From contig JASJBF010000017.1 in assembly GCA_030066685.1 (NCBI GenBank), positions 62,001 to 126,000 on the forward strand: 64,000 nt of DNA. Reading direction: 5' to 3'. Both the position numbers and the translations under genes were made by a program. The notes beneath the pieces were generated by a model. It worked only from the letters and a program-made list of their open reading frames with translations. It had not been told where the DNA came from and did no database searches. Shown piece after piece: positions 5,041 through 24,058 of the stretch (positions are counted from its first letter, which is position 1; every line of letters begins with the position of its first letter). The stretch is from Kiloniellales bacterium (GTDB lineage Bacteria; Pseudomonadota; Alphaproteobacteria; Kiloniellales; JAKSBE01).

Positions 5041-5387
5041 TCATCACAGGACTTGATCCGGTGATCCATGGATGCCCGGGTCAAGCCCATGGCTGTCCGG
5101 TTTAAATCGGAGACGGTCAAGTAAGATTTCTCCTCCCCCTTGATGGGGGAGGATAAAGGAGGGGGTGGCGGCCGTCAGGCCGCAGAAATCGGCTCTCAAG
5201 GTCTGGGTCCGAGCCGGGATCACCCCCACCCCGGCCCTCCCCCATCAAGGGGGAGGGAGTCCAAATCCGATCTCGCAGCCGGAGGCCCGATTTGCCTCAG
5301 CGCCGGCAAACCCAAGTCAAGCAAAGCATCCTCCGCAGTCCTCCCGCGCCAAACCGGACAGCCCCGGGTCAAGCCCGGGCATGACAG
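5041..5387. repeat. Nested inverted repeats (two dispersed palindrome families)
   Basis: The 420-base gap between two convergent genes is filled by nested repeats. The outer pair is GGCTGTCCGGTTT (5091-5103) and its exact reverse complement (5351-5363). Each is next to a GGGTCAAGCCC-type element, and the right-hand one ends in ATGACAG (5381-5387). The inner pair is a 19-bp core (5134-5152) and its exact reverse complement (5238-5256), with GGGGGTG/CACCCCC tails facing each other. The arrangement suggests one palindromic element family inserted inside another. No gene is supported here. The region may also serve as a bidirectional terminator. Confidence 0.7.
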
Positions 5388-5421
5388 AGGAGAATGAAGT
5401 GGCCGCTGCCGCAGCCCCACC

Positions 5422-7014
5422 TCATTCCAGCATCAGGGCCGGCAGCCAGAGGGTGATCTGGGGGAAGGCGATGACGACGGCCAGGCCGATCAGCTGGAGG
5501 ATCACAAAGGGGATAATGCCCTTGTAGATGTCCTGCATGCGGACCTCGGGCGGGGCCACGCCCTTCATGTAGAAGAGCGCGAATCCGAAGGGTGGAGTCA
5601 GGAATGACGTCTGCAGGTTGATCGCCACCAGGATCGCGAACCAGTAGATCGCCTGCTGCTGCACCGCCGCGAAGGGCGCGCCCTCCATGCCGAGGTGGAC
5701 CGCGAAGTCGGGCGCGATCTCCTTAATCACAGGCGCGAAGACCGGCAAGATGATCAGGGTGATCTCGATCCAGTCGAAGAAGAAGCCGAGCAGGAAGACC
5801 ACGAACATCAGCAGGAAGAGCAGCGCCCAGGAGTGCAGGTCGAGCCACTCGATGAACTCGATGATCAGGTCCTCGCCGTAGAGCGCACGGAAGATGTAGG
5901 AGAAGGTGGTCGCGCCGACGAAGATGAAGAAGATCATGCCGGTGGTCAGCGCGGTGCGGTGCACGACGTCGGTCAGCACCTTCCGGTTCAGGGTCCGGTT
6001 GAAGAGCGCCAGGACGATCGAGCCGAAGGCGCCGACGCCCGCGGCCTCGGTCGGGGTCGCCCAGCCGGCGAAGATCGAGCCCAAGACCAGCACGACCAGG
6101 AAGATCGGCGGGATGAAGCCCTTGAGGATCGCGCCGAAGAGCGAATCGCCCTCGCGGTGGCCGACGATCATCGAGGCGGCGAAGATGCCGAAGAAGGCGA
6201 TCAGGCCCCAGTTGGCGGCCCCGCTCAGTTCGGTCAGGTCGAGGCCCCAGGCCGCGGCGATCAGGGCCACGACGATGCCGACGTAGACGTTCATCCGGGT
6301 GCGGTTGGTCGGCTTGAGCTGGATCGCGTCGTCTGGCAGCGGGGGCGCCCAGTCCGGCTTGGCCATGCTGATGCTCAGGATGTAGAGCATGTAGAGGCCG
6401 GACAGCACGAGGCCGGGCAGGATCGCGCCGACGAAGAGGTTGCCGACCGAGACGGCCAGCAGGTTGGCCATCAGGACCAGCATGATCGAGGGCGGAATCA
6501 GGATGCCCAGGGTCGCCGAGGCGGCCAGAGTGCCGGTCGCCAGTGGCGTCTGGTAGCGCTGCTGCAGCATGGTCGGCAGCGCCAGCAGGGTCATCATGAC
6601 CACCGAGGCGCCGATGATGCCGGTGGTCGCAGCCATGATCGTGCCCATGACCGTGACCGCCATGGCCAGTCCGCCGGGGATCCGCTTCAGCATGACCTGC
6701 AGGATGTGCAGCAGGTCGGCGGCGACCCGGCTGCGTTCCAGCATGGTGCCCATGAAGATGAAACAGGGGATCGCGACCAGGACCGGGTTCTGCACCGCGC
6801 CGGAGGAGCCGTCGCCGCCCCAGATCCGCGGCAGGATGATGAAGAACTCGTTGAAGTCGATGATGTCGAGGGCGATGCCCAGGAAACCGAAGATCAGCGC
6901 CACGCCGCCGATCGCGTAGGCCACCGGCAGGCCGGTGAAGAGGGTCAGCGCCAGCGCCAGGAACATGTAGGCGCCGAGGTAGTCGTAGAAGTGGTCGTAG
7001 AGCACCTCCCACAC
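5422..7014 (-). CDS. dctM: TRAP transporter large permease (DctM type)
   Basis: This 530-residue protein is strongly hydrophobic with about twelve or more membrane segments. It carries DctM-family landmarks such as PVAYAIGG near the N-terminus, PCFIFMGTML, and a LIPPSIMLV motif near the middle. It would form the sodium-coupled channel subunit of a tripartite ATP-independent periplasmic transporter in the inner membrane. A GTG start is used, with GGGGAG nine bases upstream. It is the last gene of a dctP-dctQ-dctM operon and begins only three bases after the dctQ stop. At 530 residues it is longer than the usual 425-450, as in the FcbT3-like subgroup that takes aromatic or larger acids. Substrate unknown. 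Confidence 0.93.
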   Translation of the reverse strand: MWEVLYDHFYDYLGAYMFLALALTLFTGLPVAYAIGGVALIFGFLGIALDIIDFNEFFIILPRIWGGDGSSGAVQNPVLVAIPCFIFMGTMLERSRVAADLLHILQVMLKRIPGGLAMAVTVMGTIMAATTGIIGASVVMMTLLALPTMLQQRYQTPLATGTLAASATLGILIPPSIMLVLMANLLAVSVGNLFVGAILPGLVLSGLYMLYILSISMAKPDWAPPLPDDAIQLKPTNRTRMNVYVGIVVALIAAAWGLDLTELSGAANWGLIAFFGIFAASMIVGHREGDSLFGAILKGFIPPIFLVVLVLGSIFAGWATPTEAAGVGAFGSIVLALFNRTLNRKVLTDVVHRTALTTGMIFFIFVGATTFSYIFRALYGEDLIIEFIEWLDLHSWALLFLLMFVVFLLGFFFDWIEITLIILPVFAPVIKEIAPDFAVHLGMEGAPFAAVQQQAIYWFAILVAINLQTSFLTPPFGFALFYMKGVAPPEVRMQDIYKGIIPFVILQLIGLAVVIAFPQITLWLPALMLE

Positions 7015-7017
7015 GGC

Positions 7018-7686
7018 TCAGTGCTCCCCTTTGTGGGCGCTTTCCGCCTCTTTGACGACGATCCGGGCTTCCTCTTCCAGCTGTTCCTCCTCCTCGTGGG
7101 CGAAGATGTGCAGGTCGGCCTCGACCCGGGTCCGCGCCGCGGGCGTGCCGAAGAGGAAGACGCCGAGCCGGATGAAGGTCGCGACCACGGCGCTGAGCGC
7201 CAGCATGAAGCCGACGACGGTGAAGGACTTGACGATGTAGCGGTGGGTGATCCCGGTCAGCGATTCCGAGCCCTCGCCCTGCTCGATGGAGATCTTGACG
7301 AAGATGATGGCAAAGTAGGTGACCAGGATCAGGTAGGGCATCGCCATGACCAGCAGGCCCCAGAACTCGACCCAGGCCTGGCCGCGGCGCGACAGCTTCT
7401 CGCGGAAGATGTCGACGCGGACGTGGCCGTTCATCAGGTAGGTGAAGCCGAAGGACATCAGCAGCAGGACGCCGTGCAGATGCCACTCCATGTCCTGCAG
7501 CTTGATCGGCTCGATCAGCCAGTACCAGGTGAGCTCCGACAGGCCGATCCGGAAGTAGTCGATCTTGCGCGTGATCACGTCGAACATGATGATCGCGATC
7601 AGCGGCAAGATCAGCCAGGCCGCCAGCTTGCCGAGCGAGCGCGGGACCCTGTCGAGAACGTCGGCGACCTTCAGCAAAGACATCAT
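7018..7686 (-). CDS. dctQ: TRAP transporter small permease (DctQ type)
   Basis: This 222-residue protein has four predicted membrane segments: residues around 15-40, 85-105, 120-145 and 165-195. A WHLHGVLLLMSFGFTYLMNGHVRVDIF-like region is typical of DctQ. It is the small membrane subunit that pairs with the large permease. The C-terminal ~40 residues are rich in Glu and Lys (a charged tail with EEEEQLEEEAR), longer than in many family members. It lies between the binding-protein gene and the large permease gene and is separated from the former by 174 bases that contain a perfect GC-rich hairpin. Confidence 0.9.
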   Translation of the reverse strand: MMSLLKVADVLDRVPRSLGKLAAWLILPLIAIIMFDVITRKIDYFRIGLSELTWYWLIEPIKLQDMEWHLHGVLLLMSFGFTYLMNGHVRVDIFREKLSRRGQAWVEFWGLLVMAMPYLILVTYFAIIFVKISIEQGEGSESLTGITHRYIVKSFTVVGFMLALSAVVATFIRLGVFLFGTPAARTRVEADLHIFAHEEEEQLEEEARIVVKEAESAHKGEH

Positions 7687-7860: not shown

Positions 7861-8913
7861 CTACTTCAGATAGCCGAAGTCACGCCAGATCTTGTAGTCG
7901 GCGCGGAACTTGGTGATCGAGTCCCAGACCTTCTTGGAATCCGGGTTGCTCTTGACCTCTTCCGCGATGACCTCGTCCCAGGCGCCCTTGAGCTTGGTCA
8001 GGACCTCGTCGGGCCAGTAATGGTTGGTGACGCCGTCCTTGACGTTGTCCTGCATGGCCTTGAACTGGGCGAACTCGCCGTCGGAGATCATCTCCATGAC
8101 CTGCGCCTTGCAGGCGGTCTCCATCATCGCCTTGTGCTCGTCCTCCAGCTCGTCCCACTTGGCCTGGTTGACCAGGATCTCGTTGGCCGTGGACTGCTGG
8201 TGCCAGCCGGGGAAGTAGTTGTGCTTGGCGATCTGGTAGAAGCCGTAGGAGCGGTCTATCGCCGGCATGGAGAACTCGGTCGCGTCGATGGTGCCGAGCT
8301 CGAGCGCCGGGTAGATGTCGCCGCCGGCCAGCTGCTGGGTCGAGACGCCGAACTTCTGCATGACCTTGGCGCCCAGGCCGAAGAAGCGCATCTTCAGGCC
8401 CTTGAGCTGGTCCAGGCTGGTGATCTCGCTGCGGAACCAGCCCGAGGTCTCCGGCGGGATCATGCCGCAGAGCAGGTACTTGATGTTGTCGCGGGCGTAC
8501 ATCTCGGTCGCGAGCTCGATGCCGCCGCCGTAGACGAACCAGGCGAGGAACTCGGGCGCGGCCGGGCCGAAGGGCCAGGTCGAGAAGAAGTTGTAGGCCG
8601 AGTTCTTGCCCTGGTTGGCGCCGGGGGTGCCGAAGGCGGCGTCGATCGCGCCCTGGCCGACCGGATCGTAGTAGGCGTAGCCGCCGACCAGCGCGCCGGG
8701 CTCGAAGACCTTGATGTCGAAATCGCCGCCCGACATGGCCTTGACCGCATCGGCGACGCGATGCGGCGGCGGGCCGATCACGGCGACGTTCTTGCCGAAG
8801 GCAGCGTGCATCTTCCAGCGGACCTTCTTGGCGTCCGCCGTGGTCGAGAAGACAACCGCGGTGCTGACCGCCAGCGCCAACACGCCGAGCGTCCTCAGGA
8901 TTCCTGGCTTCAT
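7861..8913 (-). CDS. dctP: TRAP transporter substrate-binding protein (DctP type)
   Basis: This 350-residue periplasmic solute-binding protein is the first gene of the dctPQM operon. It starts with a Sec signal peptide (about residues 1-28, ending near STTADAKK). The mature part shows the TRAP-binding-protein pattern, including a DLKVF-like segment, a GLKMRFFGLG motif containing the conserved arginine that usually salt-bridges a carboxylate, and a C-terminal KFRADYKIWRDFGYLK. I choose the ATG at 8913 because GGGAGG lies five bases upstream; a start six codons earlier has no such site. The ligand is probably an organic acid or sulfonate. It resembles the FcbT1/Dde-like large-acid branch more than classical C4-dicarboxylate binders. 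Confidence 0.92.
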   Translation of the reverse strand: MKPGILRTLGVLALAVSTAVVFSTTADAKKVRWKMHAAFGKNVAVIGPPPHRVADAVKAMSGGDFDIKVFEPGALVGGYAYYDPVGQGAIDAAFGTPGANQGKNSAYNFFSTWPFGPAAPEFLAWFVYGGGIELATEMYARDNIKYLLCGMIPPETSGWFRSEITSLDQLKGLKMRFFGLGAKVMQKFGVSTQQLAGGDIYPALELGTIDATEFSMPAIDRSYGFYQIAKHNYFPGWHQQSTANEILVNQAKWDELEDEHKAMMETACKAQVMEMISDGEFAQFKAMQDNVKDGVTNHYWPDEVLTKLKGAWDEVIAEEVKSNPDSKKVWDSITKFRADYKIWRDFGYLK

Positions 8914-9295
8914 TCTAACCTCCCTGTTCATGCGCTGCGGGGTCCTTCGCTCGAACCCTCGAATTCTTTGCGATCCCCGGCCCTGCGGGCCGAGGCGAAA
9001 TGCATCGCGACACCGCCCCGAGCGCGGCGCCGGGATCTCCAGTGGCCGCTAGCTTGTGTTGGACCCGTTTTCAGGTCAAGGCGAATCAGGCCGTTAACCC
9101 AAAGCTGCCCAGAAAAGGGGCAGTGGTCCAGGGCCGCGAGCGGCGGCGGAGCAGCGCCCGGCGCCCGATGGTTGTGACCCGGACCGCGCGGCTGGGACCT
9201 GGCCGGAAGGCCCTGGCCGCGCACATCCTTTTCGTCCCGGCGAAAGGCCTGCAACGGCGCCGGCGAGTGCGTCGAAACCGGCCGAAGCCCGGGTT
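8914..9295. other. Intergenic region upstream of the TRAP operon
   Basis: These 382 bases separate the enolase-superfamily gene from dctP, both on the minus strand. Short open frames on both strands have no ribosome site or recognisable homology, and I do not call them. A weak sigma-70-like pair on the minus strand (TTGACC at 9074-9079, AAGCTA at 9050-9055, 18-base spacer) could be the dctPQM promoter, but this is a low-confidence reading. Confidence 0.35.
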
Positions 9296-10456
9296 TCAAG
9301 CGGCGCGGTGAGCCTCCAGGAAGTCCCGGTCGACCTCGATTCCCAAGCCGGGACCCTGCGGCGGCGCCGCCGTGCCGCCGTGGTCCCGGACCTGCCCTTC
9401 GATGTCGAGCGGACGGACCAAGACCCCGTCCTTGAAGCGGTTCGGCGTGGTGTCGTACTCAAGGTAAGGCGGCTCGGGATGGGCGCCGCCGGGCAAGTCC
9501 GGCAGGGCCAGCAGCAGCTGAAGGTTGGCCGCGAGGGCGACTCCGGAGCCCCAGACGTGGTTGACCACGGGCAGCAGCTGCGCCTGGGCCAGCGCCAGAA
9601 CCTTGCGGTATTCCGTGATGCCGCCCAGGCCGCAGACCTCGGGCTGCAGGATGTCGACGCAGCGGCCCGCGATCAGGTCCCGGAAGCCCCAGCGGGTGAA
9701 CTCGGCCTCACCGCCGGCAATGTTGACCGCCAGCTTGGCTCTGAGTTCGCCGTAGCCGGCCAGGTCCTCGGGCGCCACCGGCTCCTCGAACCAGTAGACG
9801 CCGAGGCGCTCCAGCTCGCGGCCCAGGGCCAGGGCATCGTGGATCGCGAAGCCGTGGTTGGCGTCGACCATCAGCCGCATATCCGGGCCGATGCCGTCGC
9901 GCACCGCCTCGACCAGCTCGACGTCCCGCGCCACGCCCAGGCCGACCTTCATCTTGGTCGCGGTGAAGCCCTTGGCCTTGATGGCCGCCGCCTCGGCCTT
10001 GAAGGCCTCGGCCAGGTCGTCCCGGCGCTGCAGCATCATGCCGTAGCCGTAGACCGGCACCCGCTCCCGGAAGGCCCCGCCCAGCAGCTTGTAAAGCGGC
10101 AGCCCCGCGGCCTTGCCGGCGAGGTCCCAGAGCGCGATATCGACTCCGGAGAGCGCCTGAATCGGCATGCCCTTCTGGCCGTGGTCGCGCAGCAGGTTGT
10201 AGACCCGCTGCCAGACGACCTCGCGGTCGAGGGCATCCATGCCCAGGATCATCGGCTGGATGACCTGCTCGACGATGGCCTTGTTGGCCAGGGCGACGTT
10301 GCCGGCGCCGAAGCATTCGCCCCAGCCGGTCAGGCCGTCGTCGGTCTCGACCTCGACCAGGTGGGCGGTGCGCTGGCTGAAGTACTGCTGGGAGTAGCCG
10401 AGCTCCTCATCCAGGTCGTAGCGCAGCACGTGGCTAGTGACACGGACGATCTTCAT
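9296..10456 (-). CDS. Mandelate racemase / muconate lactonizing enzyme family protein
   Basis: This 386-residue enolase-superfamily enzyme has an N-terminal capping domain (about 1-130) and a TIM barrel. Catalytic positions of the mandelate-racemase subgroup are visible: a KMK (Lys-x-Lys) motif near residue 165, metal ligands in DANHGF, EEPVAPED and GGEAEF, and a histidine in VVNHVWGSG. The KxK plus His pattern suits acid-sugar dehydratases or racemases working by alpha-proton abstraction. The ATG at 10456 has GAAGGG seven bases upstream; a GTG five codons earlier is less likely. It lies in line with the NIPSNAP and dehydrogenase genes and just upstream of the TRAP operon, suggesting that it processes the imported acid. 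Confidence 0.88.
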   Translation of the reverse strand: MKIVRVTSHVLRYDLDEELGYSQQYFSQRTAHLVEVETDDGLTGWGECFGAGNVALANKAIVEQVIQPMILGMDALDREVVWQRVYNLLRDHGQKGMPIQALSGVDIALWDLAGKAAGLPLYKLLGGAFRERVPVYGYGMMLQRRDDLAEAFKAEAAAIKAKGFTATKMKVGLGVARDVELVEAVRDGIGPDMRLMVDANHGFAIHDALALGRELERLGVYWFEEPVAPEDLAGYGELRAKLAVNIAGGEAEFTRWGFRDLIAGRCVDILQPEVCGLGGITEYRKVLALAQAQLLPVVNHVWGSGVALAANLQLLLALPDLPGGAHPEPPYLEYDTTPNRFKDGVLVRPLDIEGQVRDHGGTAAPPQGPGLGIEVDRDFLEAHRAA

Positions 10457-10490
10457 GCCACGGCCCTTCACTGGAGCCAGGACGGCAAGA

Positions 10491-10814
10491 TCAGTTGCCC
10501 GGCAAGGTGAAGGGCGCGGCCACCAGGATACGGTTCTCCTGCTTGATCAGGTAGCCGGCCTCGGCGCTCATCCTGGTGTAGGCCAGCCAGTCCGGGTCGG
10601 CCCACATCGCGGCGCGTCGCGTCGCACGGTCGCCGACGTCGGTGTAGGCCCAGATGTGAACGTAGCTGTTGACGTCCCCGACCTCGGTCGTGGCCCAGAC
10701 CACGGGCAGGCCGAGGTGCCGGGTCTGGGGCTCCCAGCCGTGCTTCTGGTAGAGCTCCATGTGCGCCTTGATGGTGCCGGGACGGCAGGTGTAGGTCCTT
10801 TGATCGAAGATCAC
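10491..10814 (-). CDS. NIPSNAP family protein
   Basis: This 107-residue protein starts VIFDQRTYTCRPGTIKAHMELY, the usual opening of NIPSNAP-domain proteins, which form ferredoxin-like dimeric alpha-beta barrels. Later it shows a GDVNSYVHIWAYTDVGDRATRR segment conserved in the family. I take the GTG at 10814 as the start because GGGAG lies eight bases upstream; the reading frame runs open further upstream only as a shadow of the next gene. Bacterial NIPSNAP proteins are common companions of catabolic operons, but no reaction is established. It lies 34 bases upstream of the enolase-superfamily gene and 29 bases downstream of the dehydrogenase, so the three are probably co-transcribed. Confidence 0.82.
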   Translation of the reverse strand: MIFDQRTYTCRPGTIKAHMELYQKHGWEPQTRHLGLPVVWATTEVGDVNSYVHIWAYTDVGDRATRRAAMWADPDWLAYTRMSAEAGYLIKQENRILVAAPFTLPGN

Positions 10815-10843
10815 CTTGGCTTCTCCCTTTCCTGGATCGAATT

Positions 10844-11773
10844 TCAACTCGTCGGATCGCCGGACGGCCGCTTCGGCAAGGCCGCCTCGACGCCGGTCGC
10901 CGCCTCGTAGGCCTTGATGACGGCGGTGCAACCCTCCGCACCATGGCCCGCCTCTAGGGCCCGGGCGTAGGTCTGCTGCACGGCTTCGGCGAGCAGCGGC
11001 GGCAGCCCTGCGGCGGCGGCCCAGTACGCGTAGTAGCGGACGTCCTTCTCGGCGTTGGCCAGCGACATGTAGGGGGTGAAGTCGCGCTCCAGCGTCTTCT
11101 GGCCGTAGAGGTCCATCATGCCCGACTTGCCCCCGGCCGCCGAGATGATCCCGATCACCTTGTCCATGTCCAGGCCTTCCTTGGCGGCCAGGGCGAAGCC
11201 CTCGCACCAGGAGGCGACGTTGGCGAAGGCGATGTAGTTGTGGATCAGCTTCAGCCGGATCGCGTGCCCGGCGGGGCCGACGTGGAAGACGTTCTCGGCG
11301 TAGCAGTCGAAGAGCGGCCGCAGGCGCGCCAGAAGCCCGGCGTCGCCGCCGAAGAGCACATTGACCTCGCCGCGATCGGCATGCATCGGCGTGCGGGTCA
11401 TCGGTGCCTCGGCATAGGCGATTCCCGCCGCGGCGCAGGCCGCGTTCATGCGGTCGACGTGGTCCGGGCTGGTGGTGGTATGGTCGAGCAGGATGCTGCC
11501 GGGCTTCATGCGGGCCAGGGCGCCCTCGGGGCCAAGCGTCAGATCCCGAACCACCTCGGCGGTGGTAACGCAGAGCCCGAGAACGTCGCAATCGCTCGCC
11601 AGGCCGGCAACCGACTCCGCCGCCTCGGCGCCCCGCGCCACCGCGAGCGCCACGGCGTCGTCATCCAGGTCCAGGACCGAGACCGCAACGCCCCGCTTCA
11701 GCATGTTCTTGACCAGGCCCCGGCCCATGCCGCCGAGGCCCAGGAAACCGACCTTCCCTTCGAAGGCTGCCAC
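10844..11773 (-). CDS. NAD(P)-dependent beta-hydroxyacid dehydrogenase, YihU/HIBADH-like
   Basis: This is a 309-residue member of the 3-hydroxyisobutyrate dehydrogenase superfamily. The Rossmann motif GFLGLGGMGRG is at residues 9-19, and the catalytic lysine lies in a RLKLIHNYIAF motif near residue 170. The substrate-binding loop reads APMTRTPMHADRGE rather than the classical APVSGG. This places it nearer the YihU (sulfolactaldehyde reductase) branch than true HIBADH. It begins at a GTG with AGGGAGG six bases upstream. It heads a minus-strand unit with the NIPSNAP and enolase-superfamily genes. A second, clearly YihU-like paralogue lies 1 kb away on the plus strand. The true substrate is unknown. 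Confidence 0.85.
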   Translation of the reverse strand: MAAFEGKVGFLGLGGMGRGLVKNMLKRGVAVSVLDLDDDAVALAVARGAEAAESVAGLASDCDVLGLCVTTAEVVRDLTLGPEGALARMKPGSILLDHTTTSPDHVDRMNAACAAAGIAYAEAPMTRTPMHADRGEVNVLFGGDAGLLARLRPLFDCYAENVFHVGPAGHAIRLKLIHNYIAFANVASWCEGFALAAKEGLDMDKVIGIISAAGGKSGMMDLYGQKTLERDFTPYMSLANAEKDVRYYAYWAAAAGLPPLLAEAVQQTYARALEAGHGAEGCTAVIKAYEAATGVEAALPKRPSGDPTS

Positions 11774-11843: not shown

Positions 11844-12662
11844 TCAGAAGTCGAGCGTGTCGCCCGGCTGCATTACGATGACCCGTACGCCGCCTTCATT
11901 GCCGATCGCCGCCTTGAACTCCTCCGGGGTGCCCTTGAGCGGCGGGAAGGTGCCGTAGTGCATCGGCACCACCGTCCTGGTCATGAGCAGCGATTTGACC
12001 GCATAGGCCGCGTGGGTCGGGTCCATGGTGAAGTGGCCGCCGATCGGCAGCAGGGCGAGGTCCGGCTTGTAGTAGCTTCCGATGAAGGCCATGTCGGCGA
12101 AGACCCCGGTATCGCCGGCGTGGTAGAGCGACCTGCCGTCCTCCAGCTCGATCACGTAGCCGGCCGGCTCGCCGCCCGGGACGACCCGCTTCTTGCCCGT
12201 GGCGGGATCGGTGAAGACGTACTCCGAGCTGTGCTCGGCGCGCACCATGGTGACGGTGATGCCGTCGCCCAGGGGCTTGATCGGGCCGCTCTTGTTGAAG
12301 CGGATCAACTGCTCGTTGGGCACGATGCCCAGGGTCCGGAAGGACTGGCCGAGGTCGGCGTTCATCCCGACCTTGGCGCCGGTCATCTCGGCGATCTTGA
12401 CGGTATCGCCGACGTGGTCGCCGTGGCCGTGGGTGACCAGGATCAGGTCGACCTTGCCGAGCTGGGCCAGGTCCTTCAGCGCCTCCGGCGTCTTGGGGTT
12501 CCGGGTGATGAAGGGGTCGATCAGGATCACCTTGCCGCCCGAGGTGGTGATCTTGAAGGCCGCCTGGCCGTACCACTGGATCTCGGCCGCCGGGGCGGCC
12601 CCCGGCCCGGCCAGCACCGAGACCACCAGACCGGCGCAGAGGAAAAACGCAAAACGGAACAT
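11844..12662 (-). CDS. Exported UPF0173-like metal-dependent hydrolase (metallo-beta-lactamase fold)
   Basis: The 272-residue protein has a clear Sec signal peptide (FRFAFFLCAGLVVSVLAG, cleavage likely after APAA near residue 24). A metallo-beta-lactamase domain of the UPF0173 type follows. The metal motif THGHGDH (HxHxDH) is intact, and further ligands are visible in RAEHSSEY, YHAGDTG and a C-terminal PMHYGTFP. The start at 12662 is supported by AGGGAGA just upstream. Most UPF0173 proteins are cytoplasmic, so the leader is unusual and places this enzyme in the periplasm, possibly acting on a substrate before or during TRAP uptake. The reaction is not predictable. Confidence 0.85.
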   Translation of the reverse strand: MFRFAFFLCAGLVVSVLAGPGAAPAAEIQWYGQAAFKITTSGGKVILIDPFITRNPKTPEALKDLAQLGKVDLILVTHGHGDHVGDTVKIAEMTGAKVGMNADLGQSFRTLGIVPNEQLIRFNKSGPIKPLGDGITVTMVRAEHSSEYVFTDPATGKKRVVPGGEPAGYVIELEDGRSLYHAGDTGVFADMAFIGSYYKPDLALLPIGGHFTMDPTHAAYAVKSLLMTRTVVPMHYGTFPPLKGTPEEFKAAIGNEGGVRVIVMQPGDTLDF

Positions 12663-12845
12663 GCTAGTCTCCCTGTCCTCGACCACTGATGGCGGCGAGC
12701 ATAGCAGCCCGCAGCGAGCTTGGCGCGCCGCGTTCCGCATCCTCGCCCTGAAGCTTTGCAGGACGGCAGGGCCTGCGGCCGACTCCCCTATGGCGACCGG
12801 GAGCGAATGACGTAGAGTGTCGCAAAAGGAACCGGGGGAGGCGAC

Positions 12846-13748
12846 GTGGACAGGATCGGATTCATCGGTCTCGGCCGCATGGGCCGGGGCATGGCCAGCA
12901 ACCTGCAGCGCAAGGGCTTCAAGCTGACGGTCTTCGACCTCCAGGCCGAGCCCATGCGGGCGCTGGAAGCGCTGGGCGCCAAGCCGGCCGCCTCGGTGGC
13001 GGAGCTGAGCCGCGCCGCCGACACCGTGATCACCATGCTGCCCGGCCCGCCGGAGGTCGAGGCGACGATCCTCGGGGCCGAAGGGGTGTTCGCCAATGCG
13101 CCGTCGAGCCTGCTGGTCATGGACATGAGCACGGTCGACCCGGCCCTGAGCGACCGCCTGGCCGAGACCCTGCGGGACAAGGGCCGCGCCTTCGTCGACG
13201 CCCCGGTCGGCCGCTTAGCCAGCCACGCCGAGCGCGGCGAGAGCCTCTTCATGGTCGGCGCCGAGGAGGACGACTTCTCCCGGGTCCACCCGCTGCTGGC
13301 GGCCATGGGCACGACCATCTTTCACTGCGGCGGGCCCGGCACGGGCACCCGGACCAAGCTGGTGAACAACTTCCTGGCGATCGTGTCCTGCCAGATGAAC
13401 GCCGAGGCCCTGGCCCTGACCTCGGGCTTCGGCCTCGACCTGGAGACCACCTTGGAGGTGATCCACGGCACCACCGCGACCAACGGCCAGCTCAAGATCA
13501 ACTACGCGACCAAGGTCCTGGAGGGCGACACCGAGCCCGGCTTCGCCATCGACCTGGCGCACAAGGACCTGAGCCTGATCCTGCAGGCCGCCAACGGCAG
13601 CAAGGTGCCGACGCCCATCGCCGCGGTCGCCCGGGAGAGCCTGAGCCTGGCGCGCAGCGGCGGCTTCGGCGGCAAGGACTTCTCGGCCCTGCTCGACCAC
13701 TGGTGCGAGCGCGCCGGGGTCGAGAAGCTGCGCTTCAAGAGCCAATGA
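12846..13748 (+). CDS. YihU-like NAD(P)-dependent dehydrogenase (sulfolactaldehyde reductase type)
   Basis: This 300-residue protein closely follows the E. coli YihU pattern as I remember it. It has GFIGLGRMGRGMASNL at the N-terminus, ITMLPGPPEV, then DAPVGRLASHAERGE where YihU has a PVGRTSxNA loop, and the lysine motif TKLVNNFLAI. Late in the protein come a GTTATNG segment and FAIDLAHKDL. YihU reduces 3-sulfolactaldehyde; relatives handle other short hydroxyacids or semialdehydes. The gene starts at GTG with GGGGGAGG just upstream. Its stop overlaps the ATG of the first TPP-decarboxylase subunit, so translational coupling is likely. Together these suggest a C3-sulfonate or similar 3-substituted C3 substrate, which is inference. 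Confidence 0.86.
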   Translation: MDRIGFIGLGRMGRGMASNLQRKGFKLTVFDLQAEPMRALEALGAKPAASVAELSRAADTVITMLPGPPEVEATILGAEGVFANAPSSLLVMDMSTVDPALSDRLAETLRDKGRAFVDAPVGRLASHAERGESLFMVGAEEDDFSRVHPLLAAMGTTIFHCGGPGTGTRTKLVNNFLAIVSCQMNAEALALTSGFGLDLETTLEVIHGTTATNGQLKINYATKVLEGDTEPGFAIDLAHKDLSLILQAANGSKVPTPIAAVARESLSLARSGGFGGKDFSALLDHWCERAGVEKLRFKSQ

Positions 13749-14275
13749 GTGATGGCTTCTCCTGGGCGCCGGAGGACTGGCGCCGCGATGTCTACGACGC
13801 GCTGAAGCGGGTCGAGGTACGGCAGGTCGCCTATGTGCCCGACGCCGGACACGCCAGCCTGATCGAGGCCTGCCGCGCGGACCCGGAGATCGAGGCGACG
13901 GTCCTGACCACCGAGGAGGAAGGCATCGGGATCCTGGCCGGCGCCGACCTGGGCGGCCAGCGCGGTGCCCTGCTGATGCAGTCGAGCGGAGTCGGCAACT
14001 GCATCAACGCCTTCACGCTTCTGCAGAACTGCGGCTTCCCGCTCCTGACCCTGATCACGATGCGCGGCGAGTGGGCCGAGTTCAATCCCTGGCAGGTGCC
14101 CATGGGCCGGGCGACACCGGCCAGCCTCGACCTGGTCGACGTCCTTCAGTACCGGGTCGAGCGGCCCGAGGACGCGGGCCCGGTGGTCGAGGCCGCCGCG
14201 CGCACCGCCTTCGACTGCGACCGCGCCGCCGCGGTTTTGCTGACCCAGCGTCTGATCGGCGCCAAGGTTTTCTGA
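13745..14275 (+). CDS. TPP-dependent decarboxylase, alpha (PYR-domain) subunit, sulfopyruvate/phosphonopyruvate type
   Basis: At 176 residues this matches the pyrimidine-binding half of a split thiamine-diphosphate decarboxylase, as in sulfopyruvate decarboxylase alpha (ComD). The conserved glutamate that activates the cofactor lies in the TTEEEGIGILAGADLGG segment (about residues 56-72), and LLMQSSGVGNCINAF (78-92) is typical of the phosphonopyruvate/sulfopyruvate decarboxylase family. It overlaps the preceding YihU-like gene by four bases and the following beta subunit by one base (TGATG), so the three are one translational unit. The family decarboxylates a 3-substituted pyruvate to the matching acetaldehyde. 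Which substituent is used cannot be told. Confidence 0.85.
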   Translation: MSDGFSWAPEDWRRDVYDALKRVEVRQVAYVPDAGHASLIEACRADPEIEATVLTTEEEGIGILAGADLGGQRGALLMQSSGVGNCINAFTLLQNCGFPLLTLITMRGEWAEFNPWQVPMGRATPASLDLVDVLQYRVERPEDAGPVVEAAARTAFDCDRAAAVLLTQRLIGAKVF

Positions 14276-14862
14276 TGGCCGGCGGCAGCCTTCCGCGGCG
14301 GCGGGTCGTCGCCCGGGCCCTGGCCGAGCGGCCCGCCGACCTACTGGTGGTGACCGGGCTTGGCACGCCGACCTACGACGTCGCGGCCTGCGGCGATTCC
14401 AACCTCAACTTCTACCTCTGGGGCGCCATGGGCAGCGCCCTGCCCCTCGGCCTGGGACTGGCCCTGGCCCGGCCGGACCGGCGGGTCCTGGTGGTCACCG
14501 GCGACGGCGAACTGCTGATGGCCTTGGGCGCCCTGGCGACGGTCGGGGTCAAGGGACCGGAGAACCTGAGCCTCCTGGTCCTGGACAACGAGGCCTATGG
14601 TGAGACCGGCGGCCAGGCCAGCCACACGGCAGAGAGCGTCGACCTCTGCGCCGTCGCCCTGGGCTGCCGCTGGCGGCGCGCCGAGACCTTCGCCGAGGAA
14701 GCGGCGCTGGCGGGCCTGCACGGCTTCCTGCTTGAGAGGCCGGGCCCGGCCCTCGCCGTGGCCAAGATCGCCCGCGGCGAGGAGCCCCGGGTCCTGCCCA
14801 GCCGCGACGGCCACGAACTGCGCAGCCGCTTCCGCCGGGTTTTGCTAAGCGCCACCGACTGA
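14275..14862 (+). CDS. TPP-dependent decarboxylase, beta (PP-domain) subunit, sulfopyruvate/phosphonopyruvate type
   Basis: This 195-residue protein is the diphosphate-binding partner of the preceding subunit, like ComE. The TPP motif is complete: GDGELLMALGAL (about residues 66-77) with the downstream asparagine in LDNEAYGETGGQ (about 104-115). The GAMGSALPLGLGLALARPDR stretch before it is typical of this family. The start is the ATG overlapping the alpha-subunit stop. The expected complex is a cytoplasmic alpha-beta heteromer. Neither Xsc (sulfoacetaldehyde acetyltransferase) nor phosphonoacetaldehyde hydrolase is in the window, so the next step must be elsewhere in the genome or the substrate is different. 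Confidence 0.86.
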   Translation: MAGGSLPRRRVVARALAERPADLLVVTGLGTPTYDVAACGDSNLNFYLWGAMGSALPLGLGLALARPDRRVLVVTGDGELLMALGALATVGVKGPENLSLLVLDNEAYGETGGQASHTAESVDLCAVALGCRWRRAETFAEEAALAGLHGFLLERPGPALAVAKIARGEEPRVLPSRDGHELRSRFRRVLLSATD

Positions 14863-14931
14863 CGCCTTGGAGCGGCGCCTCCGCCGTGGCAGACTTCCTG
14901 CCCCTTTCCGCCTCGGAGGAGTGAGCCAGCC

Positions 14932-16332
14932 ATGGCCCTGGCAGAGCAGCTGAAGCCGGCGATCTCCGCCGCGATCGAGGACCTCCAGGCACGCTTCGGC
15001 GAGCGCCTCTCGACCGCGGAGTCGGTGCGGCTTCACCACGGCACCGGCGAGGCCTACCACCCGGTCAGCCCGCCCGACGCGGTGGTATACGCGCGCAGCA
15101 CCGAGGAGGTCAGCGAAGCCGTCAAGGTCGCCGCCCGCCACAAGGTGCCGATCATCCCCTACGGCACCGGCACCGGGCTTGAGGGCCATACCCTGGCGGT
15201 GCGCGGCGGCATCACCCTCGACCTCTCGGAGATGAACGAGATCCTCGAGGTCTCGGTCGAGGACCTGGACTGCCGGGTCCAGGCCGGAGTGACCCGCAAG
15301 CAGCTCAACGCCTACCTGCGCGACACCGGGCTGTTCTTCCCGATCGACCCGGGGGCCGACGCCAGCCTCGGCGGCATGGCGGCGACCCGGGCCAGCGGCA
15401 CCAACGCGGTGCGCTATGGGACCATGAAGGAGAACGTCCTCGGCCTGACCGTGGTCCTGGCCGACGGCCGGATCATCCGGACCGGCACCCGGGCCCGGAA
15501 GTCCTCGGCCGGCTACGACCTGAGCGGCCTCATGGTTGGCTCCGAGGGCACCCTGGGGGTGATCACCGAGGTCGGCTTGCGCCTGGCCCCGGTGCCCGAG
15601 GCCATGTCCTCGGCGGTCTGCGCCTTCCCCTCCCTGGAGGACGCGGTCAACACGGTAATCCTAACCATCCAGTCGGGCATCCCGGTGGCCCGGATCGAGC
15701 TGCTGGACAAGGAGGGGCTTTCGGCCATTCTCGACCACGCCGGGATGGACGGCTTCGAGATCGCCGACACCCTTTTCTTCGAATTCCACGGCAGCCAGGC
15801 CGGCGCGGCGGAGCAGGCCGAGGCGGTGCGCGCCATCGCCGAGGAGTTCGGCGGCAGCGCCTTCAGATGGGCGACCAAGACCGAGGAGCGCGCCGCGCTC
15901 TGGGAGGCGCGGCACAACGCCCACTACGCGATCCTGGCCCGCGCCAAGCCGGGGCAACGCACGCTGTCGACCGACGTCTGCGTGCCGATCTCGCGCTTGG
16001 CGGACTGCATCCTGGAGTCCAAGGCCGACCTGGAGGAGACCGGCTTCTGGTCGCCGGTCATCGGCCACGTCGGCGACGGCAACTTCCACATGGCGCCGAT
16101 CGCCAACTACGACGACCCGGAGGAGAACCGGCGGGTCCAGGCCTGGCACGAGCGCATGGTCCGCCGCGCCATCGCGATGGGCGGCACCTGCACCGGCGAG
16201 CACGGCATCGGCACCGGCAAGATGCCCTACCTGGAGGTCGAGCATGGCGCCGCGGTCGAGGTCATGCGCCAGATCAAGCGCAAGCTCGACCCCGACAACA
16301 TCATGAACCCGGGCAAAGTGCTCGAGCCGTGA
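14932..16332 (+). CDS. FAD-linked D-2-hydroxyacid dehydrogenase (LDHD/GlcD type)
   Basis: This 466-residue oxidoreductase has the FAD-binding (PCMH) domain at about residues 50-230, with IPYGTGTGLEGHTLAVRGG and the PGADASLGGMAATRASG motif, and a C-terminal FAD-oxidase domain. The C-terminal domain ends in GHVGDGNFHM, GEHGIGTGKM and DPDNIMNPGKV. The pattern matches cytochrome- or quinone-linked D-lactate dehydrogenases. It follows the split decarboxylase genes by 69 bases and has a good GGAGG-type ribosome site, so it probably belongs to the same operon. If the decarboxylase uses a 3-substituted pyruvate, this enzyme could make it by oxidising the corresponding 2-hydroxyacid, for example D-sulfolactate. 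That link is inference. Confidence 0.9.
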   Translation: MALAEQLKPAISAAIEDLQARFGERLSTAESVRLHHGTGEAYHPVSPPDAVVYARSTEEVSEAVKVAARHKVPIIPYGTGTGLEGHTLAVRGGITLDLSEMNEILEVSVEDLDCRVQAGVTRKQLNAYLRDTGLFFPIDPGADASLGGMAATRASGTNAVRYGTMKENVLGLTVVLADGRIIRTGTRARKSSAGYDLSGLMVGSEGTLGVITEVGLRLAPVPEAMSSAVCAFPSLEDAVNTVILTIQSGIPVARIELLDKEGLSAILDHAGMDGFEIADTLFFEFHGSQAGAAEQAEAVRAIAEEFGGSAFRWATKTEERAALWEARHNAHYAILARAKPGQRTLSTDVCVPISRLADCILESKADLEETGFWSPVIGHVGDGNFHMAPIANYDDPEENRRVQAWHERMVRRAIAMGGTCTGEHGIGTGKMPYLEVEHGAAVEVMRQIKRKLDPDNIMNPGKVLEP

Positions 16333-16372
16333 GGCCCGCCCCGCGGGCCCGGCCGACCTGGCTCAACTTGAG

Positions 16373-16840
16373 ATGACCGACAAGCGGCTCCTGATCGTCG
16401 CCCACGCGCCCTCGCCCAACACCCGGCGGCTGCTGGACGCCGTAGTCGCGGGCGCCCGGCATCCCGACATCACCGGGGTCGAGGTGGTCGCCCGGAGCCC
16501 CTTCGACACCCGGCCCGAGCACGTCCTGGCGGCCCAGGCCATCGTCCTCGGCACCACCGAGAACCTGGGCTACATGAGCGGCGCGCTGAAGGATTTCTTC
16601 GACCGCTGCTACTACCCTTGCCTGGACAAGACCCAGGGTCTGCCCTATGCGCTCTACATCCGCGCCGGCCATGACGGCACCGGCACCAAGCGCGGCGTCG
16701 TGACCATCGTCACCGGCCTTCGCTGGCGCGCGGTGCAGGAGCCGCTGATCTGCCGGGGTGAGTTCAAGGAAGACTTCGTGCCCGACTGCGAAGAGCTCGG
16801 CACCCTCATGGCCGCTGGGCTGGAAGCGGGGGTGTTCTAG
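16373..16840 (+). CDS. Flavodoxin/NAD(P)H reductase-like protein
   Basis: This 155-residue protein has a flavodoxin-like fold. Its opening LLIVAHAPSPNTRRLLDAVVAGA corresponds to the FMN phosphate loop, and GTTENLGYMSGALKDFFDRCYYP (residues 62-84) to the second FMN loop of the WrbA/NADPH-dependent FMN reductase family. It lies 40 bases after the FAD-linked dehydrogenase gene on the same strand and probably closes that operon. It might pass electrons in the pathway or simply protect against quinone stress. A short palindrome (16861-16875) soon after the stop may be a terminator. Confidence 0.8.
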   Translation: MTDKRLLIVAHAPSPNTRRLLDAVVAGARHPDITGVEVVARSPFDTRPEHVLAAQAIVLGTTENLGYMSGALKDFFDRCYYPCLDKTQGLPYALYIRAGHDGTGTKRGVVTIVTGLRWRAVQEPLICRGEFKEDFVPDCEELGTLMAAGLEAGVF

Positions 16841-20944: not shown

Positions 20945-22144
20945 ATGGAAAGGCCGCTCGATGGCATCCGGGTCCTCGATCTGACCAATGTCCTGGCGGG
21001 TCCCTTCTGCTGCCACCAGCTGGCCCACCTGGGCGCCGAGGTGATCAAGGTCGAGGTGCCGGGGCGCGGCGACCTTGCCCGGCAGCTGGGCGCCGACCCG
21101 GAGTTGAACGACAGCTTGATGGGGGTCTCCTTCCTGGCGCAGAACGCCGGCAAGAAGTCGGTCACCCTCAACCTGAAGAACGCGGCGGGCAAGGCTTTGC
21201 TGAAGCGCCTGGTCCGCAGCGCGGACGTCCTGGTCGAGAACTTCCGCCCCGGCGTGATGGCGCGCCTGGAGGTCGGCTACGAGGTCCTGAAGGCGGAGAA
21301 CCCGAGGCTGGTCTACTGCGCGATCTCGGGCTTCGGCCAGGACGGGCCGCTGCGCGACCTGCCGGCCTACGATCAGATCATTCAGGGCCTGTCGGGCGTG
21401 ATGAGCATCACCGGCGCGCCGGAGACCGCGCCCTACCGGGTCGGCTATCCGATCTGCGATACCATCGGCGGCCTGACCGCGGCCTTCGCCATCGCCGCCG
21501 CGCTGAACGGGCGCGCGGCCGGCGGCGGGACCTTCATCGACGTCTCCATGCTGGAGGCGACCCTGGCGACCATGGGCTGGGTGGTCTCCAACTGGCTGAT
21601 CGCCGGCGTCCGGCCGCAGCCCCAGGGCAACGAGAACGTCACCTCGGCGCCCTCCGGCGCCTTCGAGACCGCCGAGGGCCTGCTCAACATCGCCGCCAAC
21701 AAGCAGGAGCAGTGGGAGATTCTCTGCCGCCACCTCGGCCGCGAAGAGCTGCTGGCGCACCCGGACTACCGGACCCGGGAGGACCGCAAGGCCAATCGCT
21801 TCGCGCTGAAATCCTTGCTCGAGGAGAGCCTGGCGGCCAGGCCGGCGCGGGACTGGGCGCGGGAGCTGAACCGGCTGGGCGTGCCCTCGGGCGCGGTCTT
21901 CACGGTGCCCGACATCCTGGAGCACCCGCAGATCGCCGAACGCGGCATGATCGCCCGCTTCGAGGCGGTGCCGGGCGCGGAGCGCGCGGTCCAGGTCCTG
22001 CGCACCGGGGTCAAGCTCGACGGCGCCGCGCCCGCGGTCGAGGCGCCACCACCGACCCTGGGGGCGGACAACGCGGAAGTCTACGGCGCCCTGGGCCTGA
22101 GCGAGTCGGAGATCGAGGCGCTGCAAAGGGAGGGCGCGATATGA
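20945..22144 (+). CDS. CaiB/BaiF-type (family III) CoA-transferase
   Basis: This 399-residue class III CoA-transferase moves CoA between carboxylic acids. Landmarks are RVLDLTNVLAGPFCCHQLAHLGAEVIKVE at the N-terminus, NLKNAAGKALLKRLV, VENFRPGVM, and YDQIIQGLSGVMSITG. The likely catalytic aspartate lies in YPICDTIGGL near residue 175. The ribosome site GGGGAGG is well placed. Its stop overlaps the start of a citryl-CoA-lyase-like gene (ATGA), and TctC, TctB and TctA genes follow. The arrangement suggests that it activates an imported tricarboxylate-like acid as its CoA thioester for cleavage by the next enzyme. The substrate itself is inferred, not shown. Confidence 0.9.
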   Translation: MERPLDGIRVLDLTNVLAGPFCCHQLAHLGAEVIKVEVPGRGDLARQLGADPELNDSLMGVSFLAQNAGKKSVTLNLKNAAGKALLKRLVRSADVLVENFRPGVMARLEVGYEVLKAENPRLVYCAISGFGQDGPLRDLPAYDQIIQGLSGVMSITGAPETAPYRVGYPICDTIGGLTAAFAIAAALNGRAAGGGTFIDVSMLEATLATMGWVVSNWLIAGVRPQPQGNENVTSAPSGAFETAEGLLNIAANKQEQWEILCRHLGREELLAHPDYRTREDRKANRFALKSLLEESLAARPARDWARELNRLGVPSGAVFTVPDILEHPQIAERGMIARFEAVPGAERAVQVLRTGVKLDGAAPAVEAPPPTLGADNAEVYGALGLSESEIEALQREGAI

Positions 22145-22962
22145 CCGGACCCGAGACCCGCGATCCCACGGTCGCCGACTGGTGGCGGACCGCGATCATC
22201 GACATGGAGCCGGGCCGGATCGCCTTCCGCGGCCGGCCCGTCGAAGACCTGATCGGCACGCTCAGCTTCCCGCAGATGATCTGGCTGCTGACCATGGGCC
22301 GGGTGCCCGACGACGGCGAGGCGAAGCTGCTGGAGGCGGCCCTGGTCGCGGCGGTCGATCACGGCCCCCAGGCGCCCTCGATCGCCGCGGCACGCATGGC
22401 CGTGACCTGCGGCCTGGACCTGAACAACGCCCTGGCCAGCGCGGTCAACATGCTGGGCGACGTTCACGGCGGCGCCGGCGAACAGGCGGTGGAGCTCTAC
22501 GGCGCCATCGCCGGCCGGCTCGACCGGGGCGAGGTCCTCGAAGCCGCCGTCGCTGCCGAGCTGGCGGCCTGGCGCGCCGCGCGGGGCCGCTTCGTCCCCG
22601 GCTTCGGTCACCGCTTCCACACCCCGGTCGACCCACGGGCCCCACGCCTGCTGGCGCTGGTCGACGAGGCCGCCGCCGGCGGGGTGGTGGCGGGCCGTTT
22701 CGCCGAGATCGGGCGGGCCATCGAGGCCGCCCTGCGGGCCGAGAAGGGCAAGCCGGTGCCGATGAACATCGACGGCGCCACGGCGGTGATCTTCGCCGAG
22801 CTCGGCTGCCCGCCGCCCCTGGCCCGAGGACTGTTCTGCTTGTCCCGCTCGGTCGGAATCCTGGCCCACGCCTGGGAACAGATGCAGCAAGGCGGCCGCA
22901 ACAAGGGGCCGACCCCGCCCGAATATCGCTGGACCTACGACGGTCCAGATGCTGGTCTATAG
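22141..22962 (+). CDS. Citryl-CoA lyase-like protein (citrate synthase family, short form)
   Basis: At 273 residues this is the short citrate-synthase fold found in citryl-CoA lyases and CoA-ester lyase/synthase paralogues, lacking the N-terminal extension of full citrate synthase. Active-site features are LGDVHGGAGEQAVEL (His region, about residues 104-118), PGFGHRFHTPVDPRAPRL (His and substrate arginine region, about 155-172) and NIDGATAVIFAELG. It is translationally coupled to the CoA-transferase. The expected reaction is retro-Claisen cleavage of a citryl-CoA-like thioester to acetyl-CoA and an oxoacid. With the TTT transporter genes right behind, this forms an uptake, activation and cleavage module. 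Confidence 0.84.
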   Translation: MTGPETRDPTVADWWRTAIIDMEPGRIAFRGRPVEDLIGTLSFPQMIWLLTMGRVPDDGEAKLLEAALVAAVDHGPQAPSIAAARMAVTCGLDLNNALASAVNMLGDVHGGAGEQAVELYGAIAGRLDRGEVLEAAVAAELAAWRAARGRFVPGFGHRFHTPVDPRAPRLLALVDEAAAGGVVAGRFAEIGRAIEAALRAEKGKPVPMNIDGATAVIFAELGCPPPLARGLFCLSRSVGILAHAWEQMQQGGRNKGPTPPEYRWTYDGPDAGL

Positions 22963-23008
22963 GCCAAGCAACGACAGAAAAGACAGATCCTTAAGGGAGG
23001 TCACCGAA

Positions 23009-23989: not shown

Positions 23990-24005
23990 TTGCATGACCG
24001 AACAG

Positions 24006-24031
24006 GGGGGCGCCGCCGCCGCGGCGTCCCC
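24006..24031 (+). promoter_or_regulatory. Intercistronic GC hairpin after tctC
   Basis: Arms 24006-24016 and 24021-24031 pair over 11 positions (one G-U) around a CGCC loop, beginning 16 bases after the tctC stop. It has no T-run. Its position matches the hairpin after dctP elsewhere in this window and suggests stabilisation or attenuation to keep binding protein in excess over the membrane subunits. Confidence 0.55.
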
Positions 24032-24058
24032 GCCACGCTCCGGAGAGACCTCCAGATC

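Follow-up and report, generated by a model that had tools for sequence, protein, structure and literature searches.

Genes of the Locus

We analyzed a 64,000-nucleotide stretch of DNA, referred to here as the window, from a Kiloniellales bacterium (assembly GCA_030066685.1, contig JASJBF010000017.1, forward-strand positions 62,001–126,000). Our subject is a run of five plus-strand genes that includes a two-subunit thiamine pyrophosphate (TPP) decarboxylase, whose subunits, α and β, fall into a branch separate from the ComDE enzymes of sulfonate degraders. The five genes are as follows.

12846–13748, plus strand: YihU-like β-hydroxyacid dehydrogenase, with a GTG start, a PVGR loop, and a K171-equivalent lysine (NF012005, 6sm7)
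13745–14275, plus strand: α (PYR) subunit of the two-subunit TPP decarboxylase, 176 amino acids (TIGR03845, clade B tree position, AlphaFold2 model)
14275–14862, plus strand: β (PP) subunit of the same decarboxylase, 195 amino acids (PRK06163, TIGR03846, PF02775)
14932–16332, plus strand: flavin adenine dinucleotide (FAD)-linked D-2-hydroxyacid dehydrogenase of the LDHD type, with an altered side-chain pocket (PF01565, PF02913, 8jdc)
16373–16840, plus strand: flavodoxin-like protein (PF03358 19.9 bits, missing the cut-off of 24; 2ark flavodoxin, E 2.2e-5; kept with the FAD gene in the sister genome G001)

These five genes had been proposed in an earlier reading of the sequence (the original prediction), and strong family or structure matches corroborate four of them, the match for the flavodoxin-like protein being weak. 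The stop of the YihU-like gene and the ATG of α overlap by four bases (ATGA at 13745), and the α stop has one base in common with the β ATG (TGATG at 14275), in agreement with the overlapping ATG reported for the two subunits. The original prediction described the dehydrogenase as fused in translation to the decarboxylase; by gene arrangement the overlaps are predicted translational coupling, not fusion, so the coupling stands and a fused protein does not. Gaps of 69 and 40 bases separate β from the FAD gene and the FAD gene from the flavodoxin-like gene, respectively. A scan for promoters and terminators, which picked up a single promoter-like site on the minus strand but no terminator, is uninformative.

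The α-β Decarboxylase Belongs to a Branch Apart from ComDE

The PF02775 match of β (61.8 bits, cut-off 21.9) and the modeled fold of α place the pair in the superfamily with separate PYR and PP subunits and a TPP-enzyme fold; with PF02776, α scores slightly below the cut-off (25.3 against 26.8 bits). α reaches 121.1 bits with the ComD model TIGR03845 (cut-off 147.95), and β reaches 127.1 bits with the ComE model TIGR03846 (cut-off 221.5) and 133.6 bits with PRK06163 (cut-off 240), so that all three are missed; the reference locus L179 clears both TIGR03845 (149.4) and TIGR03846 (240.3). The phosphonopyruvate decarboxylase model TIGR03297 (cut-off 312.5) is missed by α (59.3 bits) and β (108.4 bits), a weak test because this model describes single-chain enzymes.

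The window α is 48–67% identical to its closer relatives and 30–37% identical, in local matches, to the α subunits of 11 sulfopyruvate-type loci (28–32% over the full length for six of them). In a FastTree phylogeny of 92 sequences, kept from 137 collected after thinning at ∼80% similarity, 78 tips, the window's among them, group together as clade B with a support of 0.82, and 11 ComD tips and three distant tips lie outside it. Clade B and ComDE enzymes both consist of two small subunits in the same order and have a common core comprising E57, E59, G60, M78, Q79, R107, G108, E112, Q117, and M120, but they differ in three loops. The first, which by analogy with TPP enzymes of the pyruvate decarboxylase family would face the substrate, reads VPDAGH in the window and in 61 of the 77 other clade B tips, and VPCKQL (nine) or VPCKLL (two) in the 11 ComD tips. 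The second is MQSSGVGN in clade B and mostly MQNTA-G in ComD (SSGVGN against NTA-GV), and the third is MRGEW-EFNPWQ against mostly YRGE-GEPV-ACQ (EFNPWQ against EPV-ACQ). This signature provides a simple test that separates clade B from the ComD branch.

α-β is a predicted two-subunit TPP decarboxylase of a widespread, uncharacterized branch that stands apart from the ComDE of sulfonate degraders. Clade B loci were found in Alpha-, Beta-, and Gammaproteobacteria, Actinomycetes, and Deinococcus, and their plasmid-borne copies are mostly annotated as “thiamine pyrophosphate-binding protein,” and also as “phosphonopyruvate decarboxylase,” “aldehyde dehydrogenase,” and “hypothetical protein.” A literature search turned up no paper on the branch, most subscription papers being outside its reach.

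For the structure of α we used an alignment-based AlphaFold2 model with a predicted local distance difference test (pLDDT) score of 94.5, the single-sequence fold having a pLDDT of 46.9. The top fold match, 9u8q, is the α-imino acid decarboxylase AzcB/AzcC (9u8q–9u8s), with a template modeling (TM) score of 0.82, followed by the phosphonopyruvate decarboxylase RhiEF (9iz3/9iz4), which is likewise composed of two subunits (TM 0.80 to 9iz4). Across the aligned fold, however, identity to α is 23–24% for AzcB/AzcC, which by its entry title has another substrate, and 21–23% for RhiEF. LumK/LumL is also a two-subunit TPP decarboxylase, but the accessible part of its source (PMC12746152) describes an enzyme acting on quinoxaline carboxylate, an aromatic heterocycle, which sets it apart from the window enzyme. 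As far as these partly accessible sources go, two-subunit TPP decarboxylases of known substrate are few (ComDE, RhiEF, LumKL, and AzcBC are those met here) and their substrates very different. Because such relatives act on sulfopyruvate, phosphonopyruvate, quinoxaline carboxylate, or an α-imino acid, membership in the family is not enough to predict the substrate.

Only ComD Matches over the Cut-off Associate with xsc

The ComD model matches in 166 of the 385 genomes of the class that we scanned, and in ten of these the match passes its cut-off. All ten carry xsc, compared with 46/385 overall (Fisher 2e-10). In contrast, after removal of 39 weak matches (best E 1e-3 to ∼1e-7, hand-picked) and with G210 (143.3 bits) set aside, xsc is present in 14 of the 116 genomes with strong below-cut-off matches, a set that mixes clade B with single-chain phosphonopyruvate-type genes, and in 21 of the 258 without a strong match (p 0.16). 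Since 166 genomes have a match and only ten, all with xsc, pass, treating genes of this branch as comDE would inflate the apparent extent of C3-sulfonate degradation among environmental genomes.

We fetched 11 ComD-type loci, ten over the cut-off and one at 143.3 bits. Three of them (L177 and L179, over the cut-off, and L180, just under it) contain genes for a tripartite ATP-independent periplasmic (TRAP) transporter, a LacI-type regulator, a HisD-type dehydrogenase (449.7 bits, above cut-off), a short-chain dehydrogenase/reductase (SDR), ComD-ComE, and a flavin mononucleotide (FMN) enzyme of the lactate-dehydrogenase type, with an alcohol dehydrogenase (ADH) in two. By gene content this set is the predicted layout for degradation of 2,3-dihydroxypropane-1-sulfonate (DHPS). 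For two of its genes we infer the names HpsN and, from position, SlcD, guided by the accessible parts of PMC11382572 and PMC4334477. Within the stretch read, the DHPS-type set was not seen in the other eight of the 11 loci, so for these the case for a role in sulfonate metabolism is built on the model score together with an xsc located outside the locus.

Clade B Genes Lie near Aldehyde- and CoA-Handling Enzymes

A scan of named genomes yielded at least 578 relatives of α, of which 80 were kept as genome loci; 46 plasmid records matched, 13 were read, and our counts use 12, one of them (L139) only 35% identical in α. For these 92 loci, flanks of up to 8 kb (genome) or 7 kb (plasmid) were fetched, some cut short by contig ends, so that the neighbor counts are lower bounds. 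Open reading frames (ORFs) were picked heuristically, and a missed α or YihU gene was located by tblastn. Baits for the aldehyde and coenzyme A (CoA) partners came from plasmid locus L133, itself among the 12, with a threshold of at least 40% identity.

β was matched alongside α in 78/80 genome loci. An aldehyde dehydrogenase lies near α in nine of the 80 genome loci and ten of the 12 plasmid loci, and the genome loci further include acyl-CoA dehydrogenase (31), CaiB (30), HTD2 (23), and CitE (12). At least one of these five occurs in 38/80 genome loci and none of them in 42/80. We take this neighbor set to resemble the itaconate cluster of P. aeruginosa; one scanned CitE has the itaconate lyase RipC as its best match, at 167.7 bits, short of the cut-off of 375. 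Of the window's two nearest tree neighbors, L085 has an aldehyde dehydrogenase beside α, and L018 has a divergent gene resembling aldo/keto reductases (118 bits, cut-off 327) in that position; in a Sphingobium locus (L138) an annotated α-hydroxy-acid oxidizing enzyme, α, β, and an aldehyde dehydrogenase stand together.

True Xsc was found in none of the 92 loci, the best bait identity being 29.4%, and matches of 25–29% near some of them proved to be other TPP enzymes. The DHPS-cluster baits for the HisD-type enzyme (HpsN), DctP, the small TRAP subunit, LacI, and ADH matched in 0/92 loci, versus two to three of the 11 ComD loci. The FMN-type bait matched in 3/92, at no more than 37% identity. 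Annotations that could be read in terms of sulfur occur in two plasmid loci, as a cysteine dioxygenase (L135) and a SulP transporter (L129), and one neighboring acyl-CoA dehydrogenase has 3-sulfinopropanoyl-CoA desulfinase as its third-best match (186.8 bits of a cut-off of 600).

Three further observations concern individual loci. On a plasmid of the peanut symbiont Bradyrhizobium guangxiense (L135), α-β is found with a Glu/Leu/Phe/Val dehydrogenase, an aldehyde dehydrogenase, CaiB, MaoC, and the cysteine dioxygenase, for which our guess would be 4-methyleneglutamate catabolism. In L018, a second, Xsc-like (28%) TPP enzyme gene (5307–7058) lies upstream of the clade B α-β. Two near-identical loci from metagenome-assembled genomes (L035, 3501–4715; L077, 2797–4011) encode a 404-residue galactarate-dehydratase-family protein close to α-β; in L035 it scores 172 bits in a match starting at profile position 96, and it could be SuyB- or UxaA-like.

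The YihU-like Dehydrogenase Is Coupled to α

The best of 12 models for the coupled dehydrogenase is the sulfolactaldehyde reductase model NF012005, at 280.7 bits (cut-off 348, missed), and its closest solved structure is YihU (6sm7, 228 bits; runner-up 177). It aligns with YihU over the full length and keeps the catalytic Lys and, as had been predicted, the PVGR loop, but it reads PVGRLASHA where YihU has PVGRTSANA, and Ala replaces Ser after KLxNNxx. The loop Arg is kept in all aligned YihU orthologs. The loop is not proof of a sulfonate substrate, because the second β-hydroxyacid dehydrogenase of the window (listed below) also has Arg there (PMTR).

YihU orthologs (E ≤ 1e-60) occur in 31 of the 385 class genomes, and 28 of these 31 have a strong α match, compared with 127/385 overall (Fisher 6e-12); at genus level, counted by hand, α is present in 17/20 genera with YihU against 120/277 (9e-5). 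There is no enrichment of xsc among them (5/31 genomes, p 0.31). Within the fetched flanks of α, a YihU-like gene is found in four of the 80 genome loci and one of the 12 plasmid loci, and it stands directly beside α in G014 and G149. The α subunits with such a neighbor are scattered over the tree rather than monophyletic, so the pairing probably arose more than once.

YihU orthologs also lie next to other TPP enzymes. In L226 and L227, from one genus, the YihU gene and the single-chain acetolactate-synthase-like TPP gene that follows it share four bases; in L230 a gene of this type is found directly upstream of the YihU ortholog. Judged by gene order, this is a second kind of TPP-enzyme/YihU pairing.

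The FAD Enzyme Has an Altered Side-Chain Pocket

The FAD enzyme belongs to PF01565 and PF02913, and its best structural match is mouse LDHD (8jdc, 506 bits). The accessible part of the LDHD source (PMC10589216) defines a subsite A (R347, H398, H405, E442, and H443) and a hydrophobic subsite B (V101, W351, S365, and I407). By that partial definition, all five residues of subsite A are present in the window enzyme, whereas subsite B reads L101, H351, S365, and A407, with T363 nearby, and is identical in G001. The differences from LDHD are thus V101L, W351H, I407A, and A363T. We compared 16 of 18 homologs of the order (L236–L253, the genome's own paralog included; L236 and L237 were left out), and these have Y, F, or A at 351 and in no case Ala at 407. 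Because subsite B is altered, the window enzyme is perhaps not a D-lactate enzyme and may accept another side chain.

We also considered this enzyme as SlcD and rejected the assignment, since its PF01565/PF02913 family is not the FMN α-hydroxyacid dehydrogenase type found beside ComDE in L177, L179, and L180. The FMN-type gene of L179 is of the L-lactate-dehydrogenase type (261.5 bits, cut-off 376).

Neighboring Genes and Their Fate in a Sister Genome

Upstream of the five genes lies a divergent minus-strand set with a TRAP transporter, and beyond it a dehydratase gene on the plus strand.

11844–12740, minus strand: metallo-β-lactamase-fold hydrolase, divergent (PRK00685 239 bits, passing the cut-off of 144)
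10844–11773, minus strand: second β-hydroxyacid dehydrogenase, L-threonate-dehydrogenase-like, PMTR loop (NF043037 173.7 bits, cut-off 350)
10491–10886, minus strand: NIPSNAP-domain protein, start uncertain (PF07978 in the C-terminal part of ORF 10491–11591)
9296–10471, minus strand: MR/MLE enolase-superfamily protein, acid-sugar-dehydratase-like (PF13378, PF02746; NF040866 217.5 bits, cut-off 650)
7861–8931, minus strand: TRAP solute-binding protein DctP (PF03480 115.8 bits)
7018–7686, minus strand: probable TRAP small subunit, judged by its location between the DctP and large-subunit genes
5422–7014, minus strand: TRAP large subunit (23% identity, E 8e-14, to the large subunit of a DHPS-type cluster)
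3466–5001, plus strand: GarD-like fused SAF + GD_AH dehydratase (TIGR03248 399 bits, cut-off 730.85; 6u7l GarD 340.7 bits)

The original prediction mentioned neither the MR/MLE gene with the second β-hydroxyacid dehydrogenase nor the GarD-like gene. It likened the TRAP transporter to that of DHPS degradation; TRAP genes do lie nearby, with a large subunit that is only 23% identical to its DHPS-cluster counterpart. The GarD-like gene is the sole GD_AH_C match in the genome, with GarD as its best match. Its superfamily also contains SuyB, and a SuyAB-like role is possible on this kinship.

G001, from the same genus (99% complete, 10% contamination), keeps the order NIPSNAP (85%), hydrolase, YihU (94%), FAD enzyme (92%), and flavodoxin-like protein (93%), with 51 bases in place of window positions 13771–14855, so that α-β is gone. 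The first 26 bases of α and the last seven of β still align there, and these remnants suggest loss in G001 rather than gain in the window genome. Neither G001 nor G002 (81% complete) yielded an α anywhere in the genome, and the MR/MLE gene and the second β-hydroxyacid dehydrogenase were likewise missing from the G001 locus. The joint absence of α-β and these two genes, a single comparison, hints that they act together. In one clade B locus (L069) an MR/MLE gene runs into the start of α.

Sulfonate and Phosphonate Genes Elsewhere in the Genome

The original prediction held that Xsc and HpsN are absent and named xsc and phnX as genes to look for. The absence is correct for the window operon, but not for the genome (5.96 Mb, 73 contigs), in which xsc and phnX both score over cut-off outside the window, and an HpsN-like gene is present as well. 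The xsc is a bona fide one (925.9 bits, cut-off 676.4), and the 20-kb stretch around it holds a MocR-type regulator, a TauE/SafE exporter, and, ∼8.5 kb away, an omega-aminotransferase (610 bits, cut-off 500), a predicted neighborhood that fits taurine use. phnX (342.1 bits, cut-off 220) is on another contig.

The HpsN-like HisD gene lies on the window's contig (within L264 8395–11318, contig C17 of the window genome, G000) and is 59% identical to its HisD-type counterpart in a DHPS-type cluster. Beside it is a LacI-type gene (40% identical to the DHPS-cluster LacI), and nearby are a ProU-type ATP-binding cassette (ABC) binding protein and a DegT-type aminotransferase, which makes it an HpsN-family enzyme outside the DHPS layout; baits for the SDR, ADH, and TRAP partners found no match around it. 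Searched with the FMN enzyme that accompanies ComDE elsewhere, the genome gives 36% identity at best, and the window α is the genome's sole ComD-model match.

Proposed Function and Alternatives

From the computed family, clade, gene overlap, co-occurrence, and joint absence in G001, we infer a reaction, its direction, a substrate class, and an order of steps. Our preferred reading, to which we give about even credence, is that α-β is a putative two-subunit 2-oxoacid decarboxylase of the uncharacterized branch, delivering an aldehyde to the YihU-like enzyme. α-β would remove CO2 from a 2-oxoacid, probably a plain carboxylic one derived from a sugar acid or dicarboxylic acid, and the translationally coupled, NAD(P)-dependent YihU-like enzyme would reduce the resulting aldehyde to a hydroxy compound, whereas many relatives seem to rely on an aldehyde dehydrogenase instead. 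One potential source of the 2-oxoacid is the MR/MLE dehydratase encoded in the divergent TRAP set, and another, less surely, is the FAD D-2-hydroxyacid dehydrogenase. The original prediction, which allowed for a new substrate, proposed a route from a 3-substituted lactate through the pyruvate to the acetaldehyde; its general chemistry, from 2-hydroxyacid to 2-oxoacid to aldehyde with the YihU-like enzyme working on an aldehyde or alcohol, remains the best frame, whereas the C3-sulfonate or phosphonate class is not sustained by the clade, the cut-offs, the loops, the neighbors, or the xsc counts. The partner genes offer a concrete assay, in which decarboxylation is coupled to NAD(P)H oxidation.

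Several findings weigh against the preferred reading. The statistic for the co-occurrence of YihU and α ignores kinship and genome size, and the second β-hydroxyacid dehydrogenase, intended as its control, is present in 2/385 genomes, too few to serve. Among the matches listed, the YihU-like gene and α are adjacent in two of the 28 genomes that have both (G000 and G149), and in most of the 28 the pair seems to be unlinked. MR/MLE genes lie near α in only three of the 80 genome loci, and what ties them to α-β is the L069 overlap and the shared absence in G001, a single instance of each. The FAD enzyme is in none of the 92 other loci, and it persists with YihU in G001 without α-β, so that the two may serve another pathway. 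The last two observations would follow if separate units stood side by side, with YihU, the FAD enzyme, and the flavodoxin-like protein, which G001 keeps in synteny, as an older unit and α-β as an accessory with its own substrate. We regard this as possible but not probable, as the YihU-α-β neighborhood recurs in several genera, the genes overlap in the window, and the remnants of α and β in G001 suggest loss there.

It is unlikely that the locus serves a C3-sulfonate route, in which the FAD enzyme would oxidize sulfolactate, α-β would decarboxylate sulfopyruvate, the YihU-like enzyme would handle sulfolactaldehyde/DHPS or sulfoacetaldehyde, and the pathway would end with the Xsc encoded elsewhere in the genome. 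An SlcD-ComDE-Xsc route is published (accessible part of PMC11382572). The genome has a true xsc and an HpsN-like gene beside a LacI-type gene, no solved structure is closer to the dehydrogenase than that of YihU, and, as the sole ComD-model match, the window α is the candidate if this genome decarboxylates sulfopyruvate at all; the cysteine dioxygenase, the SulP transporter, and the weak desulfinase match in relatives' loci could be read the same way. However, by cut-offs, clade, loops, neighborhoods, and genome co-occurrence a sulfonate assignment of α-β is unsupported, though not disproved. Neither the below-cut-off genomes nor those with YihU orthologs are significantly enriched in xsc, the relatives' loci have none of the HpsN-type, DctP, small TRAP, LacI, or ADH partners, the genomic xsc sits in a taurine-like setting and the HpsN-like gene with ProU- and DegT-type genes, and the FAD enzyme differs in type from the FMN enzyme that accompanies ComDE. 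A role in phosphonate metabolism, with α-β decarboxylating phosphonopyruvate to supply the product of the genomic phnX, would agree with that gene and with RhiEF as a fold neighbor, but seems very improbable given the different contig and, for what this single-chain model is worth, the missed TIGR03297 cut-off. Tartronate semialdehyde reductase acts after Gcl, and by a similar logic the TPP enzyme could make a hydroxy-oxo acid by carboligation, for the YihU-like enzyme to reduce. The acetolactate-synthase-like genes coupled or adjacent to YihU orthologs in L226, L227, and L230 would suit this idea, which we nevertheless doubt strongly, since two-subunit relatives of known activity are decarboxylases.

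Extended to the whole branch, the preferred reading of α-β as a 2-oxoacid decarboxylase becomes a proposal on which we are equally inclined to belief and to doubt. Clade B, with its signature VPDAGH...MQSSGVGN...MRGEW-EFNPWQ, would be a large unstudied branch of decarboxylases with a new substrate, working in a module with an aldehyde-disposing enzyme (an aldehyde dehydrogenase, aldo/keto reductase, or YihU-like reductase) and often feeding an itaconate-type set of CoA-transferase, acyl-CoA dehydrogenase, hydratase, and lyase. In the window the module may follow the MR/MLE dehydratase in a new route for shortening sugar acids.

Farther along the plus strand of the window (20945–26057), a gene for a CaiB-family CoA-transferase is followed by TctC- and TctA-type genes of a tripartite tricarboxylate transporter, an arrangement conserved in G001 (L254).

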